A stretch of 64,000 bases of DNA from Buchnera aphidicola (Ceratovacuna keduensis) (GTDB lineage Bacteria > Pseudomonadota > Gammaproteobacteria > Enterobacterales > Enterobacteriaceae): NCBI RefSeq assembly GCF_039372665.1, contig NZ_CP134994.1, positions 349,542 through 413,541 on the forward strand, read 5' to 3'. The translations under genes were made by a program, and so were the position numbers. Shown here piece by piece: positions 2,836-59,305 of this stretch. Below the pieces are notes generated by a model. That model was not told the origin of the DNA and searched no databases. It saw nothing but the letters and a program-made list of their open reading frames with translations. The first letter of the stretch is position 1. Each line of letters starts with the position of its first letter.

Positions 2836-3342
2836 ATGAAAATATTAAGATATCCTAATAAAAAATTAAGATATATATCAAAACCTGTAATAAAAATAGA
2901 TAAAAAAATTCATAAAATAATAGATAAAATGTTTAAAATAATGATATTAGAAAATGGAATAGGATTATCTGCAATTCAAGTTGGAATTCCTTTACAAATA
3001 ATAACAATATTAGATACAGAAAATATTAATAAAAAAATTACAATAATAAATCCTAAAATAATAAAAAAAAAAAAAAAAATATTAAATAGTGAAGGTTGTC
3101 TTTCATTTCCAAATCAACAAGCTATTGTTCCAAGATATAAATATTTAGATATAAAAGCTTTAAACTATTATGGAAAAAACATAAAAATAAAAGCTAAATC
3201 TTTACTATCGATATGTATACAACATGAAATTGATCATTTATTAGGAAAACTTTTTATAGATTATCTTTCAGAGTTAAAAAAAAATATCATAAAAAAAAAA
3301 ATGAAAAAAATGTATAAAAAAGAAAATGAAAATAAAAATTAA
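2836..3342 (+). CDS. def: Peptide deformylase
   Basis: Def removes the N-formyl group from nascent proteins using a bound metal ion. All three family motifs are present: GIGLSAIQVG (residues 41-50, with Ser where E. coli has Ala), EGCLSF (86-91, metal ligand Cys88) and HEIDH (130-134, metal ligands His130 and His134, catalytic Glu131). The length of 168 aa matches E. coli (169). The C-terminus is lysine-rich. A run of 17 A residues at 3063-3079 encodes five lysines in frame, just before the Cys88 motif. The end overlaps the start of fmt by 17 bases, and def-fmt is the standard formylation/deformylation pair. Confidence 0.97.
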   Translation: MKILRYPNKKLRYISKPVIKIDKKIHKIIDKMFKIMILENGIGLSAIQVGIPLQIITILDTENINKKITIINPKIIKKKKKILNSEGCLSFPNQQAIVPRYKYLDIKALNYYGKNIKIKAKSLLSICIQHEIDHLLGKLFIDYLSELKKNIIKKKMKKMYKKENENKN

Positions 3343-4273
3343 AAAAAAATTAAAAATAGTTTTTGTTGGAACAACAAATTTTTCTAAAAAATATTTAGAA
3401 GCTTTAATAAAATCAAAATATAAAATAACAAAAGTTATAACAAAAAGAAAATTTTTTAAAAAAAAATATATTTCTGAAGTTGAAAAAGTTGCAAAAAAAA
3501 ATTTTATTAAAGTAATTTCAAAAATAAATTTAGAAAATTCAAAAATAATAAAAGAAATTAAAAAAGAAAATCCAGACATTATGATAATAGTTGCATATGG
3601 AATAAAAATACCTAAAAATATAATAAAAATATTTCCATTAAAAGCAATAAATATACATCCTTCAATTTTACCTAAATGGAAAGGACCTTCTCCTATACAA
3701 AGAGCTATATTAAATGGAGATAAAAAAACTGGTATCAGTATTATACTAATAAATCAAAAAATTGATTCTGGCAATATATTATATAAAAAAACATGCAAAA
3801 TAGAAAAAAAGGATACATTCTTAAGTCTATCTAAAAAATTATGTAATATTGGAATAAAATGCATGTTTTTAACTTTAAAAAATATTCATAAAAAAAAAGA
3901 ACATAAACAAAAAAATATAAAAAATAATAATTTATATGCATATAAAATTAAAAAGTTAGAAACAAAATTAATTTGGTCAAAATCTGCAAAATCTTTAGAA
4001 AGATCAATAAGAGCTTTTTTCCCAAAACCTGCAAGTTATTTTATATATAAAAAAAAAAGAATAAAAGTAATGAAATCTAAAATATTTTTTTCAAAAAAAA
4101 AATATTTGTGTGGAAAAATAATAAATGTTTTAAAAAATGGAATATATATAGGAACAAAAAAAAATTGTTTAATAATAAATAAAATTCAATTAGAAGGTAA
4201 AAAAATAATTAATTCTGTAGATATATATAATGGATACAAAAATTTTTTTAAAATTGGAGATATAATTAAATGA
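3326..4273 (+). CDS. fmt: Methionyl-tRNA formyltransferase
   Basis: Fmt transfers a formyl group from 10-formyl-THF to initiator Met-tRNA. The catalytic triad is visible: Asn109 and His111 in INIHPS and Asp147 in QKIDSGN. The folate-loop segment SILPKWKG (113-120) and the C-terminal RNA-binding domain (about 210-315) are also present. The length is 315 aa, the same as E. coli. The loop after the second beta strand, GRGKKL-bearing in E. coli and reaching into the tRNA acceptor stem, is about four residues shorter and has no recognisable match here. The ATG lies inside the end of def (17-base overlap), implying translational coupling. Confidence 0.95.
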   Translation: MKIKIKKKLKIVFVGTTNFSKKYLEALIKSKYKITKVITKRKFFKKKYISEVEKVAKKNFIKVISKINLENSKIIKEIKKENPDIMIIVAYGIKIPKNIIKIFPLKAINIHPSILPKWKGPSPIQRAILNGDKKTGISIILINQKIDSGNILYKKTCKIEKKDTFLSLSKKLCNIGIKCMFLTLKNIHKKKEHKQKNIKNNNLYAYKIKKLETKLIWSKSAKSLERSIRAFFPKPASYFIYKKKRIKVMKSKIFFSKKKYLCGKIINVLKNGIYIGTKKNCLIINKIQLEGKKIINSVDIYNGYKNFFKIGDIIK

Positions 4274-27693: not shown

Positions 27694-27781
27694 GGTGAGA
27701 TGCCTGAGAGGCTTAAAGGGCACGCCTGGAAAGCGTGTATGCAAAATTTTTGCATCAAGGGTTCGAATCCCTTTCTCACCT
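27694..27781 (+). tRNA. tRNA-Ser (anticodon GGA)
   Basis: A class II tRNA with a long variable arm (GCAAAATTTTTGC). The acceptor GGTGAGA pairs with TCTCACC, the anticodon loop is CTGGAAA (anticodon GGA), and the T arm contains GGTTCGAATCC. CCA is not encoded. The base after the acceptor stem is T, where serine tRNAs normally have G73. A TATAAT at 27677-27682 could be its -10 box, but the -35 side is weak. Confidence 0.97.
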
Positions 27782-27840: not shown

Positions 27841-28412
27841 TTAATAATATGAATGCTTTCCACGAATATGTTCTGTAATATCTTTTACACCTTTTATATC
27901 TGTAAATTTTTTTAACAATTGTTTAGAAATAAAATTTTTTAATGTTAGATTTGACATAGAACATCCATTACAACTTCCTAAAAATTTTAAAAAAACATAT
28001 TTTTTTTTATCAATTTTTATAAATGTTATACTTCCTCCATGAATGGATAAATTAGGATTTATTTCATTATTTATCCAAAATTTTATTTTTTCTTCTAAAT
28101 TAAAATTTTTATAATCTTTTTTTGAACACATATTAGGTACATTTAAAACTAAATTAAAAGAAGTATTTTTTTCTTTTAATTCAATATTAGAATTTTTTAA
28201 ATAAATATAATCATTTTTATTTACATATACAGAAAATCCATCAAAATTAAAAACTAAATCATTTTTTGTAATATTTTTAATATTACAATATACTATTCCA
28301 AATTTAACTTTATATGTTCCTAAATTTTTAGCAAATATTCTAATTTGTGTATTTTTTTTTTTGACAATAATTTTTTTAAATATATTTCAGCACTTTTAAA
28401 AATAGTAATCAT
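27841..28412 (-). pseudogene. nfuA: Fe-S biogenesis protein NfuA, one base off-frame in a poly(A) run
   Basis: The region encodes full-length NfuA (about 190 aa; E. coli 191) in two frames. From ATG 28412 the frame gives MITIFKSAEIYLKKLLSKKK, matching the E. coli start. It then meets a run of 11 A (28362-28352), after which the other frame continues NTQIRIFAKNLGTYKVKFG and on without a stop to the C-terminus. The Fe-S ligands lie in LGSCNGCSMSNLT, and the end is EHIRGKHSYY. One extra A, or two fewer, restores a single frame. NfuA carries and delivers 4Fe-4S clusters. Conservation on both sides of the run argues against a dead gene. It could be rescued by transcriptional slippage, express only the 96-residue C-terminal domain from ATG 28131, or reflect a homopolymer sequencing error. 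It is divergent from bioH. Confidence 0.85.
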
Positions 28413-28493: not shown

Positions 28494-29219
28494 ATGAAAA
28501 AAAATAAAAAAAAAAATATTATATTAGTATATGGATGGGGAATAACAAAAAAAATATGGCAAAATCTTATAAAACATTTAAAAAAAAAATATAATATATT
28601 TATTTTAGAAATATGTAAATTTTTAGAAAAAAATAATCTTAACAAAAAAAAATTTAATTATATAGTTGATTTTATGTATAACAATTTTGATAAAAATTCT
28701 ATATGGATAGGATGGTCAATAGGTGGTTTATTTACAATGAAAATAGGATTAAACAATTATAATAAAAATTCTAAAATTATAACAATATGTTCTTCTCCGT
28801 GCTTTTTAAAAAAAAAATCTTGGGAAGGAATAAAAAAAAATAAAATTTCAAACATTTTTAAAAATTTATTAAAAAACTATAATAAAACAATAAAAAATTT
28901 TTTTATAAAAAGTTCATATAATAAAGAATATATAAAAAAAATATTTATAAATCAAAAAATACCAAAAAAAAATAGTATAAAAAAATGTTTTAACATAATG
29001 ATAAAAACAGATATTAAAAATTTAATAAAAAATTCTAAATCTAAAATATTTAGAATATATGGAGAATTTGATAATATAGTTCCTAAAAAAATATGTAAAA
29101 ATATTTATATAAAAAAAAATAATGAATATTTTATAATAAAAAAATCAGGTCATATACCATTTTTAACTCATACAAAACAATTATCAAAAATAATACATTA
29201 TATTTTAAAAAAAAAATAA
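28494..29219 (+). CDS. bioH: Pimeloyl-ACP methyl ester carboxylesterase BioH
   Basis: BioH releases pimeloyl-ACP from its methyl ester, closing the pimelate stage of biotin synthesis. It is an alpha/beta hydrolase of 241 aa (E. coli 256). The catalytic triad is visible: Ser75 in GWSIGG, Asp193 in YGEFDN and His220 in KSGHIPF. The oxyanion region VYGWG (12-16) and CSSPCF (99-104) also match BioH. It is divergent from nfuA with 81 bases between, the same neighbour as in enterobacteria. It is strongly lysine/asparagine-biased. Confidence 0.93.
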   Translation: MKKNKKKNIILVYGWGITKKIWQNLIKHLKKKYNIFILEICKFLEKNNLNKKKFNYIVDFMYNNFDKNSIWIGWSIGGLFTMKIGLNNYNKNSKIITICSSPCFLKKKSWEGIKKNKISNIFKNLLKNYNKTIKNFFIKSSYNKEYIKKIFINQKIPKKNSIKKCFNIMIKTDIKNLIKNSKSKIFRIYGEFDNIVPKKICKNIYIKKNNEYFIIKKSGHIPFLTHTKQLSKIIHYILKKK

Positions 29220-29290: not shown

Positions 29291-29815
29291 TTAAAAAGGA
29301 ATTTCATCATCAAATTCTGAATCACTACTTTCATTTAACAAAATATCTTTTTTAGAATAACCTTCATCTTCTTTTATATTATCTTTTTTTAAAATTTTTT
29401 GTTTATTAGAATCTATATTTTTAGAATTGGATTTTTCTTTTTTTGAAATATTAGTAGAATTATTGTTTCTAGTACCTAACATTTGCATAGTTCCTCCTAT
29501 ATTTACAACAACTTCAGTAGTATATCTATCTATATTATTTTGATCTTGCCATTTTCTAGTTTGTAAAGAACCTTCTATATAAACTTGAGATCCTTTTCTT
29601 AGATATTCTCTTGCTATTTCAGCTAACTTATTAAACAGAACAATTCTATGCCATTCTGTTTTTTCTCTTATCTCTCCAGTATTTTTATCTTTCCATGTTT
29701 CAGAAGTTGCAATGTTCATATTAGCTACTGCTATTCCATTAGTCATATATCTTACTTCAGGATCTTGACCTAAATGACCTATTAATATTACCTTATTTAT
29801 TCCCCTACTAGCCAT
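29291..29815 (-). CDS. ssb: Single-stranded DNA-binding protein
   Basis: SSB coats single-stranded DNA and recruits repair and replication enzymes through its C-terminal tip. The OB fold begins [20 protein letters not shown] and includes [15 protein letters not shown] and [13 protein letters not shown]. The acidic tip ends DDEIPF, as needed for binding exonuclease I (SbcB, encoded at 36783) and others. The start is ATG 29815 behind GAGGATTTT; an open frame upstream adds 28 non-homologous residues. Length 174 aa (E. coli 178). The linker is asparagine/lysine-rich. Confidence 0.97.
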
Positions 29816-29972
29816 AAAATCCTCTAAATAAATTAAAAAGTTAAAAATTTTATATATTTTTAATTTTAGTTTTAAAATTTTATTTAAAAAAAATAACATA
29901 AATGATAATATAAAAAAATATTTTTATTTTAAAAATATATAAGATTTTTAAATTAATATTATACTATAAAAA

Positions 29973-31051: not shown

Positions 31052-32446
31052 ATGGAAAAAAATAAAAAAATATTTGAAACTTTATACAAAAATAAAAAAT
31101 ATAAAAAAAAAACACCACCACATTCTATAGAAGCTGAACAATCTATATTAGGTGGATTAATGCTAGATAATAATAAATGGGATACAGTTTCAGAAATAAT
31201 AGTAGAAAAAGATTTTTTTATAGTTCAACATAGAATAATATTTAATGAAATGAAAAATTTATTAGATTTAGAATGTCCAATTGATTTAATAACATTATCA
31301 GAATCTTTAGAACAAAAAAAAAAATTAGAAATAGTAGGAAGATTTTCTTATCTTGCTGAATTATCTAAAAATACTCCAAGTACAGCAAATATTAAAGCAT
31401 ATGCTAATATAGTAAAAGAAAGAGCAATAATAAGAGAAATAATATTAGCAGCTAATAAAATGATAATAGCAGGATATAACACAGAAGGCAAAAATAGTGA
31501 AAATTTATTAGACTATGCTGAATCTATAATTTTTAAAATTTCTGAAAATAGAATAAAAAAAAAATCAGGACCAAAAAATATAGTTCAAATATTAGATTCT
31601 ACTATATCTAATATAGAAAATTTAATGAAATCTCCTATTGAAGATATAACAGGTATAAATACTGGATATCAAGATTTAAATAAAAAAACTTCAGGACTAC
31701 AAAAATCAGAATTAATAATAATAGCAGCTAGACCTTCTATGGGAAAAACTACATTTGCTATGAATATTTGCGAAAACATAGCTATGATATATGAAAAACC
31801 AGTATTAATATTTAGTTTAGAAATGCCTGTAGAACAAATAATGATAAGAATATTATCATCATTATCAAGAGTTAATCAATCTAAAATAAGAACAGGAAAA
31901 TTAAATGATGAAGATTGGTCAAGAATATCTAGCACTATAAATATTTTATTAAAAAAAAAAAATATATATATAGATGATTCTTCTTCATTAACTACAACAG
32001 AAATAAGATCTAGATCTAGAAAAATATATAGAGAAAACAAAGGAATTAGTTTAATTATGATAGATTATTTACAGTTAATGAAAATACCATCTATAAAAGA
32101 AAATAGAACTTTAGAAATAGCAGAAATTTCTAGAACATTAAAATCATTAGCTAAAGAATTAGAAGTTCCAATAATAGCTTTATCTCAATTAAACAGATCA
32201 TTAGAACAAAGAGCAGATAAAAGACCTTTAAACTCAGATTTAAGAGAATCAGGATCTTTAGAACAAGATGCAGATTTAATAATGTTTATATATAGAGATG
32301 AAGTATACTATGAAAATAGTGATTTTAAAGGAATAGCAGAAATAATAATAGGAAAACAAAGAAATGGTCCTATAGGAACTATAAGATTAACATTTAATGG
32401 TCATTGGTCAAGATTTGACAATTATTCTGGAATAAAATATAAATAA
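31052..32446 (+). CDS. dnaB: Replicative DNA helicase DnaB
   Basis: DnaB is the ring helicase of the replication fork. It has an N-terminal domain (PPHSIEAEQSILGGLMLDN near the start), a linker, and a RecA-like C-terminal domain with Walker A in ARPSMGKTTFAMN (about residues 226-238), Walker B in LIMIDYLQLM, and the SQLNRSLEQRADKRP loop. Length 464 aa (E. coli 471). It follows dusA after 74 bases on the same strand. Confidence 0.98.
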   Translation: MEKNKKIFETLYKNKKYKKKTPPHSIEAEQSILGGLMLDNNKWDTVSEIIVEKDFFIVQHRIIFNEMKNLLDLECPIDLITLSESLEQKKKLEIVGRFSYLAELSKNTPSTANIKAYANIVKERAIIREIILAANKMIIAGYNTEGKNSENLLDYAESIIFKISENRIKKKSGPKNIVQILDSTISNIENLMKSPIEDITGINTGYQDLNKKTSGLQKSELIIIAARPSMGKTTFAMNICENIAMIYEKPVLIFSLEMPVEQIMIRILSSLSRVNQSKIRTGKLNDEDWSRISSTINILLKKKNIYIDDSSSLTTTEIRSRSRKIYRENKGISLIMIDYLQLMKIPSIKENRTLEIAEISRTLKSLAKELEVPIIALSQLNRSLEQRADKRPLNSDLRESGSLEQDADLIMFIYRDEVYYENSDFKGIAEIIIGKQRNGPIGTIRLTFNGHWSRFDNYSGIKYK

Positions 32447-40615: not shown

Positions 40616-41553
40616 TTATATTATATAAATATTTTTTTTAAAAATTTCTAAAATTTTATTCTCAGAATTTTCTATATCCTCAGAACATAAAAAATGTAAA
40701 TTTTTCCAAGATCTTATCCAAGTCATTTGTTTTTTTACTAATTTTTTAGTAGCAAAAAATATTTTATTAAACATTTCATTATATGTAATTTTTTTATTTA
40801 TAAAATCCCACATTTGTGAATATCCTATGCAATTCATAGACTGAAATTTTACATTTAAAATATTATTTTTAAATAATTCATAAACTTCTTTTTCAAAACC
40901 AGAATCTATCATTTTTTGTAATCTTAAAATTATATTTTTATAAAGAAAAAATATATTTTTTGGTATCAAAGCAAATTGTAAAACTTCATATGGAAACTTG
41001 TTTTTTTTTATAAAACTACTTTTTTTTTTCCAGTAGTATAATATACTTCTAAAGCTCTAGATAATCTATATATATCATTTTTGTTTATGTTCATAGCACT
41101 TTTCGAATCTATATCAAAAAGTTTTTTATATAAACTAATAGAACCATTACTATTAGCGTAATTTAAAATTCTATTAGTTAAATATTTATTTTTTTTAGGC
41201 AAATTTATTAGTCCATTTAAAAGTATTTTGTAATACAACATCGTACCTCCAACTAATAAAGGGACTTTTTTTTCTAAAAAACATAATTTTATTTCTTTTA
41301 ATGCATCATAATAAAAATTTGCAACAGAATATCTTTGATTAGGATATATTATATCAACTAACTTATGAGGAAACTTTTTCAATTCATATTTGTTTGGTTT
41401 TGCAGTACCTATGTTCATATATTTATAAACTAATGAAGAATCTACACTAATTATTCTTGCATTAATTTTATTATAAATCTTCATAGCTAAAGAAGTTTTT
41501 CCACAACAAGTTGGTCCCATTAAAAAAATTACTATATTATTATTTTTATTCAT
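40616..41553 (-). pseudogene. miaA: tRNA dimethylallyltransferase MiaA, one base off-frame in a poly(A) run
   Basis: MiaA adds the isopentenyl group to A37 of tRNAs reading UNN codons. The first frame starts at ATG 41553 with the P-loop GPTCCGKTSLA and runs through VDSSLVYKYMNIGTAKPN and RLSRALEVYYTTGKKK. It then reaches a run of 10 A (41029-41020) and a stop soon after. In the next frame the protein continues KSSFIKKNKFPYEVLQFALI and on through CIGYSQMWDF and KKQMTWIRSW to the end at 40616. One more A, or two fewer, would give one frame of 312 aa (E. coli 316). Both parts are well conserved, so slippage rescue, recent decay or a sequence error are all possible. The second half alone lacks the P-loop and could not work. 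Confidence 0.87.
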
Positions 41554-48625: not shown

Positions 48626-50095
48626 TTATTTAACAAAAAATAAATTTTTAATTATTGGATTACTAATTTTAGAAAAAACTACATTAGTTTTAATACCATA
48701 TGAATGTATTTTATTTACATAAGGCATACCAACATTATTAAAATCATCAAAATTTCTTGATCTAGTAATACTACATATGTCTACTTCAAAACTATTTTCA
48801 TTAATTCTATTTATTTTATAAGAAATTTTTGGATGATAAAAAGTACATTTTAATATATCTGGATTTTTAGCTATTAATCCAAAAAAAGCTTTTGATAAAA
48901 CTCCTTCTTGAGAAAAACAAGACACTAATTTTCTATCTGATATATTAGGTAATAACTCTTTAAACTTTTTTAAAATTTCTTTAGGATCTTTATTTTCTGT
49001 TATAGATTTTCCATCAATAGACATTTCTACATTGCCTAATTCAGACATAAAAACTTTATGCAAATCTTCTTCATCACTTCTATTTAAATAATCAAAATGA
49101 TCTCTTATATCTTTTCCAAATTTTACTAAAGGGAAAGATTCATTAGCATCATTTAACAATTTCCATTCATTTCCTTTATCGTCTACTTCTTCTATTCCTT
49201 TATTATTTTTAATTTCATCATTAACTTCTGAAACAAATTCACAACATCTATGATGCAAAGGAAACCCATTCATATGTACAACTTTTGAATCATGTTTATA
49301 AACTACTTTTTTTAAATTAGATCCTTTAATATTACTTGGTTTATCAATAGAAACAGGATCTATATCAGTATTTTCTAGAATATTTTCATATTCAATCAAT
49401 TTACTACACTTATATGGTTTTTTTTTATTTAATTCATTAAAAACTTTTAAATTTTTGTTTCCTTTACTAATATCAAAATTTATATCTTTATTACTATATA
49501 TATTAGTTGATTTTTTGGAATCTTCACAAAAAGAAGAATATGAAATTTTAGCAGAAATGTTAATCTTATTATTATAATTTTCTTTAAAAACACTTAAATT
49601 TGGTAAAATATTAGATATTAAATTATTATCTTTAATATCATTTTCTATATTGTTTATTTTAGAATCTTTGTATTTTAATAATTCAGACATGAATGAAACT
49701 ACATTTTTTTTTTTATCATAAAGAATTCTAAATCTTGAAAATTCTTCACCTTTATTAATATATTTAACTGTTTGATATTTATTAATAAATAATAATGAAT
49801 TTTTTTTATTATCTTTAACATTTTCTTCATTTTTTTTTAATATTTTTGAAGAATCTTCTTTGTTAATATTCAAATTATTTTTAGATATTTTTACAACTGT
49901 TTTTTTTTTATGATAAGAAAAGGGTTTTCTTTCAGGTACTAATGTAATTACTACACTATTTTCAGGATTTTCAAATGAATCAACTTTATAATCTTGAACC
50001 ATGTTTTCTTCATTTTTTTTATTACTTATTTTAGAATTAACATTTATAACATGTTTTAAAGAAGTTGTTTCATTTATATTATAATTATATGACAT
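48626..50095 (-). CDS. Unrecognised 489-residue orphan protein
   Basis: I do not recognise this protein. The ATG at 50095 is chosen because AAGG lies nine bases upstream; another ATG at 50116 has no such site. There is no signal peptide and no membrane segment. The first ~270 residues are polar and low in complexity, rich in Asn, Lys, Ser and Asp, and probably disordered. From about 280 on the protein looks folded: VVHMNGFPLHHRCCEFVSEV, EEDLHKVFMSELGNVEMSID and SCFSQEGVLSKAFFGLIAKN, with many charged residues, several Cys and a hydrophobic C-terminus. It is long and uninterrupted in a decaying genome, which implies selection. Buchnera genomes carry lineage-specific orphans (labelled yba in some annotations); this may be one, but I cannot confirm it. 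It lies between dapF and epmA. Confidence 0.8.
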   Translation of the reverse strand: MSYNYNINETTSLKHVINVNSKISNKKNEENMVQDYKVDSFENPENSVVITLVPERKPFSYHKKKTVVKISKNNLNINKEDSSKILKKNEENVKDNKKNSLLFINKYQTVKYINKGEEFSRFRILYDKKKNVVSFMSELLKYKDSKINNIENDIKDNNLISNILPNLSVFKENYNNKINISAKISYSSFCEDSKKSTNIYSNKDINFDISKGNKNLKVFNELNKKKPYKCSKLIEYENILENTDIDPVSIDKPSNIKGSNLKKVVYKHDSKVVHMNGFPLHHRCCEFVSEVNDEIKNNKGIEEVDDKGNEWKLLNDANESFPLVKFGKDIRDHFDYLNRSDEEDLHKVFMSELGNVEMSIDGKSITENKDPKEILKKFKELLPNISDRKLVSCFSQEGVLSKAFFGLIAKNPDILKCTFYHPKISYKINRINENSFEVDICSITRSRNFDDFNNVGMPYVNKIHSYGIKTNVVFSKISNPIIKNLFFVK

Positions 50096-50292
50096 AATAT
50101 TATGCCTTAAATGCATATTCTATAATTTTTATTTAATTAAATTTTTTATATTTAGTCAAGTAATTTATTTAATCAAAAAAAAATATAATTTTTAAAATAT
50201 TTTATAAATATATATAATAAACATTATAATATTATAAAAAAATTAAAAATAATATAAAAATTATATAATTTTTTATTATTAATTTTATAAAA

Positions 50293-58893: not shown

Positions 58894-59040
58894 ATTTTAA
58901 AAACTCCAAAATATTTTTAAAAATATTAAAAATATTTAAAAAAATACTCTTTTATACATTTTATAAAATTTGATGAAATACTATGATTGTCATAAAAAAA
59001 CTTATTAAAATCATAAATAATATAGTAAAAAAAACTTTTG

Positions 59041-59114
59041 CAGGGGAGGAGGGATTTGAACCCCCAACATCCGGTTTTGGAGACCGACACTCTACCTATT
59101 TGAGTTACACCCCT
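59041..59114 (-). tRNA. tRNA-Trp (anticodon CCA)
   Basis: The anticodon loop is CTCCAAA (CCA), with a T arm GGGGGTTCAAATCCC. The D and anticodon stems pair fully. The acceptor stem AGGGGTG/CTCCCCT has a T-T mismatch at 6-67, where E. coli has C-G, and the D loop is one base longer than E. coli. G73 is kept. The 3' CCA is not encoded. A frame of 80 codons across this region is spurious. Confidence 0.96.
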
Positions 59115-59305
59115 ATATAAAATATTAAAAATTTTAAAAAATAAAAAAAATATTTTTTTTAAAAACACAAATTTTTTAATTCTTATTAAGAACTACATGA
59201 TAATATAATACTATTAAAAGTAAATATAGTCTATATATTTTATAAAAATAGATTTTTTGAAAAAAAACAATATAAAAATTATTAACTAAAACAAAATTAA
59301 ATTAA

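Follow-up and report, generated by a model that had tools for sequence, protein, structure and literature searches.

Frameshifts in poly(A) tracts have been described from A+T-rich insect endosymbionts, and slippage at the tract has been proposed as their cure. In the Buchnera and Blochmannia cases of Tamas et al. (2008), as related in PMC3017870 and PMC4389277, the shift lies in a poly(A) tract and the remainder of the gene is conserved. These cases resemble the nfuA gene considered here, from which they differ in that other genes were affected and transcripts were examined, nfuA being known from DNA only. The sequence-only reading of this locus had pointed to such reports of rescue by slippage, and the two papers do relate them. 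They also relate the ancient homopolymer frameshifts of Blochmannia (Wernegreen et al. 2010), which like that of nfuA are shared by species without decay. Six Blochmannia genomes are reported to carry 4 to 8 shifted genes each (PMC4389277), some of them common to several species and annotated as intact (PMC4389277, PMC3017870). The dnaX gene of Blochmannia vafer and B. floridanus is described as shifted where its poly(A) tract is pure and as intact in a relative with an interrupted tract (PMC3017870). A further described frame change is the programmed +1 frameshift of prfB, in which full-length release factor 2 (RF2) requires an early change of frame (PMC12421855).

The nfuA gene belongs to the known class of homopolymer frameshifts of insect endosymbionts. 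Compared with the Blochmannia cases as these papers describe them, we deal here with Cerataphidini Buchnera, with six species and with one exact run length, found in nfuA and in prfB; the prfB case is the most novel part. Among the open-licence papers listed in our searches, none was seen to describe nfuA or prfB as shifted in this way; a table in one Buchnera paper names nfuA in its row for Anoeciinae.

The split nfuA gene and its relatives

The window, i.e. the whole stretch of 64,000 nucleotides that was analysed, is part of a Buchnera genome (G000) of 422,862 bases in 3 contigs with a chromosome of 413,541 bases. The features of the nfuA locus are the following:

28320..28412, minus strand: nfuA N-terminal frame with ATG at 28412 (pN/pS of the N-terminal part 0.196)
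28352..28362, minus strand: A11 run, site of the nfuA frame change, exactly 11 A in 6/6 genomes of the genus
27841..28350, minus strand: rest of nfuA, read in the second frame and containing the CNGC cluster motif (TIGR03341, PF01106; pN/pS 0.344)
28494..29219, plus strand: bioH, divergent upstream neighbour of nfuA (TIGR01738), used as a control for decay

The N-terminal frame, opened by the ATG at 28412 on the minus strand, starts with MITIFKSAEIYLKKLLSKKK and stops without a shift at a TAG after 30 codons. The plus strand has 11 T at positions 28352-28362, and the coding strand accordingly has 11 A. The second frame comprises 169 codons at 27844-28350 followed by a stop at 27841-27843, and upstream it is stop-free as far as 28386. 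These coordinates of run, ATG and second frame bear out the claim of the sequence-only reading that nfuA is split by a one-base shift at the A11 run; its statement that 170 codons after the shift lack stops was right about the stops, while the count is 169 codons plus the stop. Together with the preceding stop-free stretch, the C-terminal part matched positions 18-190 of the 190 of model TIGR03341 (NF008392) with an E value of 1.3e-46 and a score of 158.8 bits, which is under the curated whole-protein cut-off of 269. It also matched PF01106, the C-terminal NifU-like domain (E 6.8e-18), and the CNGC motif (CxxC) is invariant in NfuA of all six genomes. The N-terminal part of 20 residues had no match by itself against Pfam and was assigned to NfuA because of its position and its likeness to intact homologues. 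Beyond the nfuA stop, a tRNA-Ser gene (27694-27781) adjoins on the opposite strand.

Six Buchnera genomes formed the genus sample, namely G000 (host Ceratovacuna keduensis) and those with the inferred hosts Astegopteryx bambusae (G001), Ceratovacuna japonica (G002), Pseudoregma panicola (G003), Ceratoglyphina bambusae (G004) and Chaitoregma tattakana (G005). The host genera other than Ceratovacuna we take to be members of the Cerataphidini. Ceratovacuna itself is included in this tribe (PMC9672956), and for C. japonica the same paper mentions a rearing system. Contig C2 of G000 matched Buchnera leucine plasmids, with the best match (91.6%) to a plasmid from Pseudoregma panicola and Astegopteryx plasmids also near. 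The nfuA region gave no match when searched against plasmids.

Comparison of the run length in relatives, proposed along with the sequence-only reading, gave exactly 11 A and an identical frame change in all six genus assemblies, and nowhere among them does NfuA run in a single open frame from start to stop. The bases flanking the run differ among the six, and protein identity of the C-terminal part to that of the window ranges from 64 to 92%. The conservation of both halves that had been read from one genome thus extends to six species with the same A11, which is stronger than sequence alone could tell. It is hardly credible that the run reflects an error of assembly or sequencing. Long homopolymers are generally error-prone and five of the six genomes apparently come from one study (PMC11193766), but the six assemblies agree and the one from Ceratovacuna japonica is apparently another group's, made from Nanopore data polished with Illumina reads (PMC9672956), which makes a shared error unlikely; moreover, other long runs of the window are in frame, such as the A12 at 31951 in 6/6 genomes.

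Among 149 sampled genomes of the family, 143 had an nfuA match (2 of them in the genus) and six had none. The N-terminus and the remainder lay in one frame in all 42 homologues that were read outside the genus. These 42 (35 + 7) were taken from 141 non-genus matches, the other 99 being judged by open-frame length only: in 98 of them the open frame spans 189 residues or more, and the last is a fragment in a genome that is 49% complete. The homologues in one frame include nfuA of G035 (L018), the probable Buchnera of Nipponaphis monzeni from the same aphid subfamily, and that of G104 (probable host Greenidea ficicola), which was nearest in the EF-G tree with a support of 0.93. In other lineages the N-terminal stretch of nfuA contains in-frame A10 and A15 runs (L013, L021, L061). 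The simplest account is a single origin of the nfuA shift on the genus stem.

Selection on both parts of nfuA

Values of pN/pS are raw, over all pairs, and were obtained from Nei-Gojobori counts without saturation correction. For the C-terminal part of nfuA the value was 0.344 in its own frame, compared with 0.81 and 1.21 when the two remaining frames were read. Variable sites were distributed over the three codon positions as 65, 36 and 97 of 169 each, and the own frame had no stops while the others had 15 to 26 per genome. The N-terminal part, which is short with 16 codons before the run, showed 0.196 in its own frame against 0.52 and 0.83 in the others. Across 75 intact genes of the window the median was 0.297, and 43 of them lay below the 0.344 of the nfuA C-terminal part. 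When this part was evolved neutrally along the tree of the region, using its branch lengths either in full or halved and 300 runs for each setting, all six tips stayed open in 0/300 runs and a tip collected on average 3.9 to 8.7 stops. Within the genus the neighbouring bioH is disappearing: it is gone from G004 (359 bases versus 1,082 to 1,104 in three others), and G005 has weak fragments only, with a best E value of 3e-4.

A dead nfuA in early decay would agree with the frame being broken in 6/6 genomes, with the loss of other genes such as bioH from this clade and with the six family genomes that lack an nfuA match. We nevertheless consider it very unlikely, given 169 codons free of stops in six genomes, purifying selection in two different frames, a neutral simulation that did not once leave all tips open and a substitution rate typical of intact genes. 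The view that the gene is not dead, already taken from the single genome, is therefore supported by codon-position bias, by pN/pS in both frames, by the simulation and by the loss of bioH nearby in two of the six genomes.

As little credit can be given to translation of the C-terminal part from a start of its own, which would produce a short NfuA without the first ~21 residues. In 6/6 genomes the third codon past the run is ATT, a rare start, but this ATT encodes the isoleucine of a TQIR motif that is common in one-frame homologues, and its conservation is therefore expected anyway. ATG, GTG and TTG occur at no shared place, the first ATG following 73, 73, 73, 19, 62 and 131 codons after the run. 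An own start would also free the N-terminal part to decay, yet this part is constrained.

With a single poly(A) shift, purifying selection on its two sides and its sharing by species, nfuA has all the tested features of homopolymer-shifted genes. It is, as these comparisons indicate, a working gene that was frameshifted anciently, and full-length NfuA is very probably made by some route.

Run lengths and other shifted genes

An A or T run of at least 9 occurs in some genome at 345 sites of the 64-kb alignment. Only 18 of these stay at 8 or more in all six genomes, and four are identical in length in all six: the nfuA run and those at 4049, 31951 and 39247. The fixed runs at 4049 (A10) and 31951 (A12) are in frame. 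Of 18 runs of exactly 11 in the window, nfuA's alone has 11 in all six genomes, and four of the 60 window runs of at least 10 inside gene spans keep that minimum in all six. That 6/6 genomes share one shift at one A11, when only 4/345 runs are fixed in length, is therefore more than chance. We also considered the purity of the run as proof of selection and set this argument aside: it is weak evidence, because the window has seven conserved Lys-Lys-Lys sites that are read in frame, and two of these also consist of A alone in each of the six genomes. The longest conserved run found was a 17-A run inside def (3063-3079, plus strand), whose length varies from 13 to 20 A among the six; none of these genomes had def flagged as split.

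Shifted genes were surveyed in 164 kb of the 413.5-kb G000 chromosome, i.e. in the window and in an extra 100 kb. Among 79 gene spans of the window two genes are split, nfuA and miaA, the latter with this layout:

41008..41553, minus strand: miaA N-terminal frame, TIGR00174 model positions 1-171
41020..41029, minus strand: run at which the miaA frame changes, with A10 in G000, G003, G002 and G001
40616..41056, minus strand: miaA remainder in the second frame, TIGR00174 model positions 170-287

These four genomes, in which the A10 is pure, have the gene shifted; in G004 and G005, whose run is broken, it lies in a single frame. The pattern is like that reported for Blochmannia dnaX, with the difference that another gene and another bacterium are concerned. 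The two miaA halves had pN/pS values of 0.315 and 0.356 in the four shifted genomes. The 72 frame-change matches of the window were sorted by eye, with miaA as the one clear case and the remaining rows taken as shadow frames or upstream extensions. Six of the 79 spans were less than 0.93 open in some genome, namely miaA, bioH and four others. These four were rejected as split genes since their relatives match in one frame and start sites differ, with the exceptions that 58929-59168 was only partly matched in G004 and that 29294-29899 had a second short match in another frame at the N-terminus in G003. The window further contains a conserved frame of 497 codons (48629-50116, minus strand) with no NCBIfam match at 0.001 and with a low identity of 46-67% to its relatives.

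For the extra 100 kb, G000 was compared with G002, G001 and G005, and 22 conserved frames with a late start were found. Upstream frames were read for five of these, of which prfB and recC were kept, and the others were judged by first-start position only. The prfB gene, encoding RF2 (G000:C1:300919-301974; TIGR00020, E 3.5e-129), is shifted near its start at exactly A11 in 6/6 genus genomes (L123-L128). The flanks differ among the genomes, the run being followed by TAAAAA, CGAAAA, TGAAAA or CAAAAA, and the C-terminal part has a pN/pS of 0.316. The motif CTTTGA was absent from 195 nt around the prfB N-terminus in 6/6 genus genomes. The prfB of the genus shares with the programmed +1 frameshift the need for an early frame change, and differs from it in having no CTTTGA in the stretch read and in changing frame at A11 in the opposite direction.

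We read the start of prfB in 25 genomes and found CTTTGA in nine (9/19 outside the genus), a like site with TAA in five, one frame in five and A11 in the six of the genus. The five with the early stop TAA instead of TGA were L131, L132, L137, L139 and L143 (from G092, G038, G035, G026 and G131), and release factor 1 could therefore read the site too. The identity of the stop at the prfB frameshift site is described as almost completely conserved (PMC12421855). UGA stops are still used: of the 79 window spans, 76 end in a stop at the boundary as listed (three boundaries are off), and 2/76 use UGA, as do 3/75 frames of the extra 100 kb. The prfB case matters because RF2 reads UGA and UAA (PMC13245932) and UGA stops remain in use.

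The recC gene (L104:7292-10288, plus strand; G000:C1:316833-319829) has a shift near the N-terminus in four of the six genomes, three of which (G000, G003, G002) change frame at A14 and one (G005) at A11. In G001 and G004 it is in frame near the N-terminus and the matches change frame further on. This pattern is untidy and we place no weight on it. The shifts in nfuA, miaA, prfB and recC all have the same direction; either the insertion of a base into the mRNA or a -1 step of the ribosome would serve it.

Probable slippage at the run and its meaning

That the same split was kept in six related species argues that nfuA is probably alive and read by slippage, and not dead. In the explanation we prefer, the one-base shift at A11 would have been fixed before the six Cerataphidini Buchnera diverged and then held by selection. 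RNA polymerase would slip on the A run, some mRNA would carry an A count that joins both frames, and unslipped message would give a dead-end peptide of 30 residues. We consider it fairly likely that such transcriptional slippage is the main route to full NfuA. It is favoured because insertions in Buchnera transcription concentrate in homopolymers and because rescue was reported for other endosymbiont genes. Of 157 insertions in a study of Buchnera transcript errors, 151 were in homopolymers, and for runs of up to 11 nt the insertion rate is reported to climb exponentially as the run gets longer (PMC5574713). The same study detected no restored frame, which counts against slippage, and PMC3017870 cautions that expression may stay reduced despite rescue.

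The sequence pattern would be no different under a -1 ribosomal slip, which DNA cannot separate from slippage of the polymerase. Ribosomes can slide on poly(A) lysine codons. A -1 slip or such sliding on AAA codons would produce the same protein from unedited mRNA; the N-frame reading of the run contains the slippery heptamer A_AAA_AAA, and the shift direction suits a -1 slip in all four genes. Folding of the downstream 90 nt, however, showed no stimulator common to the six genomes: z values ranged from -0.03 to -2.31 in nfuA and from -0.07 to -2.02 in prfB, and for each gene just 2/6 genomes fell below -1.9. Ribosomal slip also does not by itself require a run as long as 11. We therefore regard a shift by the ribosome as possible, though unlikely to be the main route.

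A more speculative and rather doubtful reading is that the A11 in nfuA and prfB might serve as a fixed expression device, a homopolymer attenuator giving a constant low in-frame share, which in prfB would have replaced the RF2-sensing autoregulatory frameshift. Consistent with it, the run is fixed in all six Cerataphidini Buchnera while the prfB flanks changed, and the genome hardly uses UGA stops. From prfB one would learn whether a classical regulatory frameshift can be taken over by slippage. Since the six species share one run length, they offer a natural series for measuring how much correct message and protein a fixed A11 yields. Automatic annotation would call nfuA dead, yet the split outlasted the divergence of the genus with both frames constrained, and the same applies to prfB. 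Scoring such genes as lost would lead to misjudged abilities of minimal genomes.
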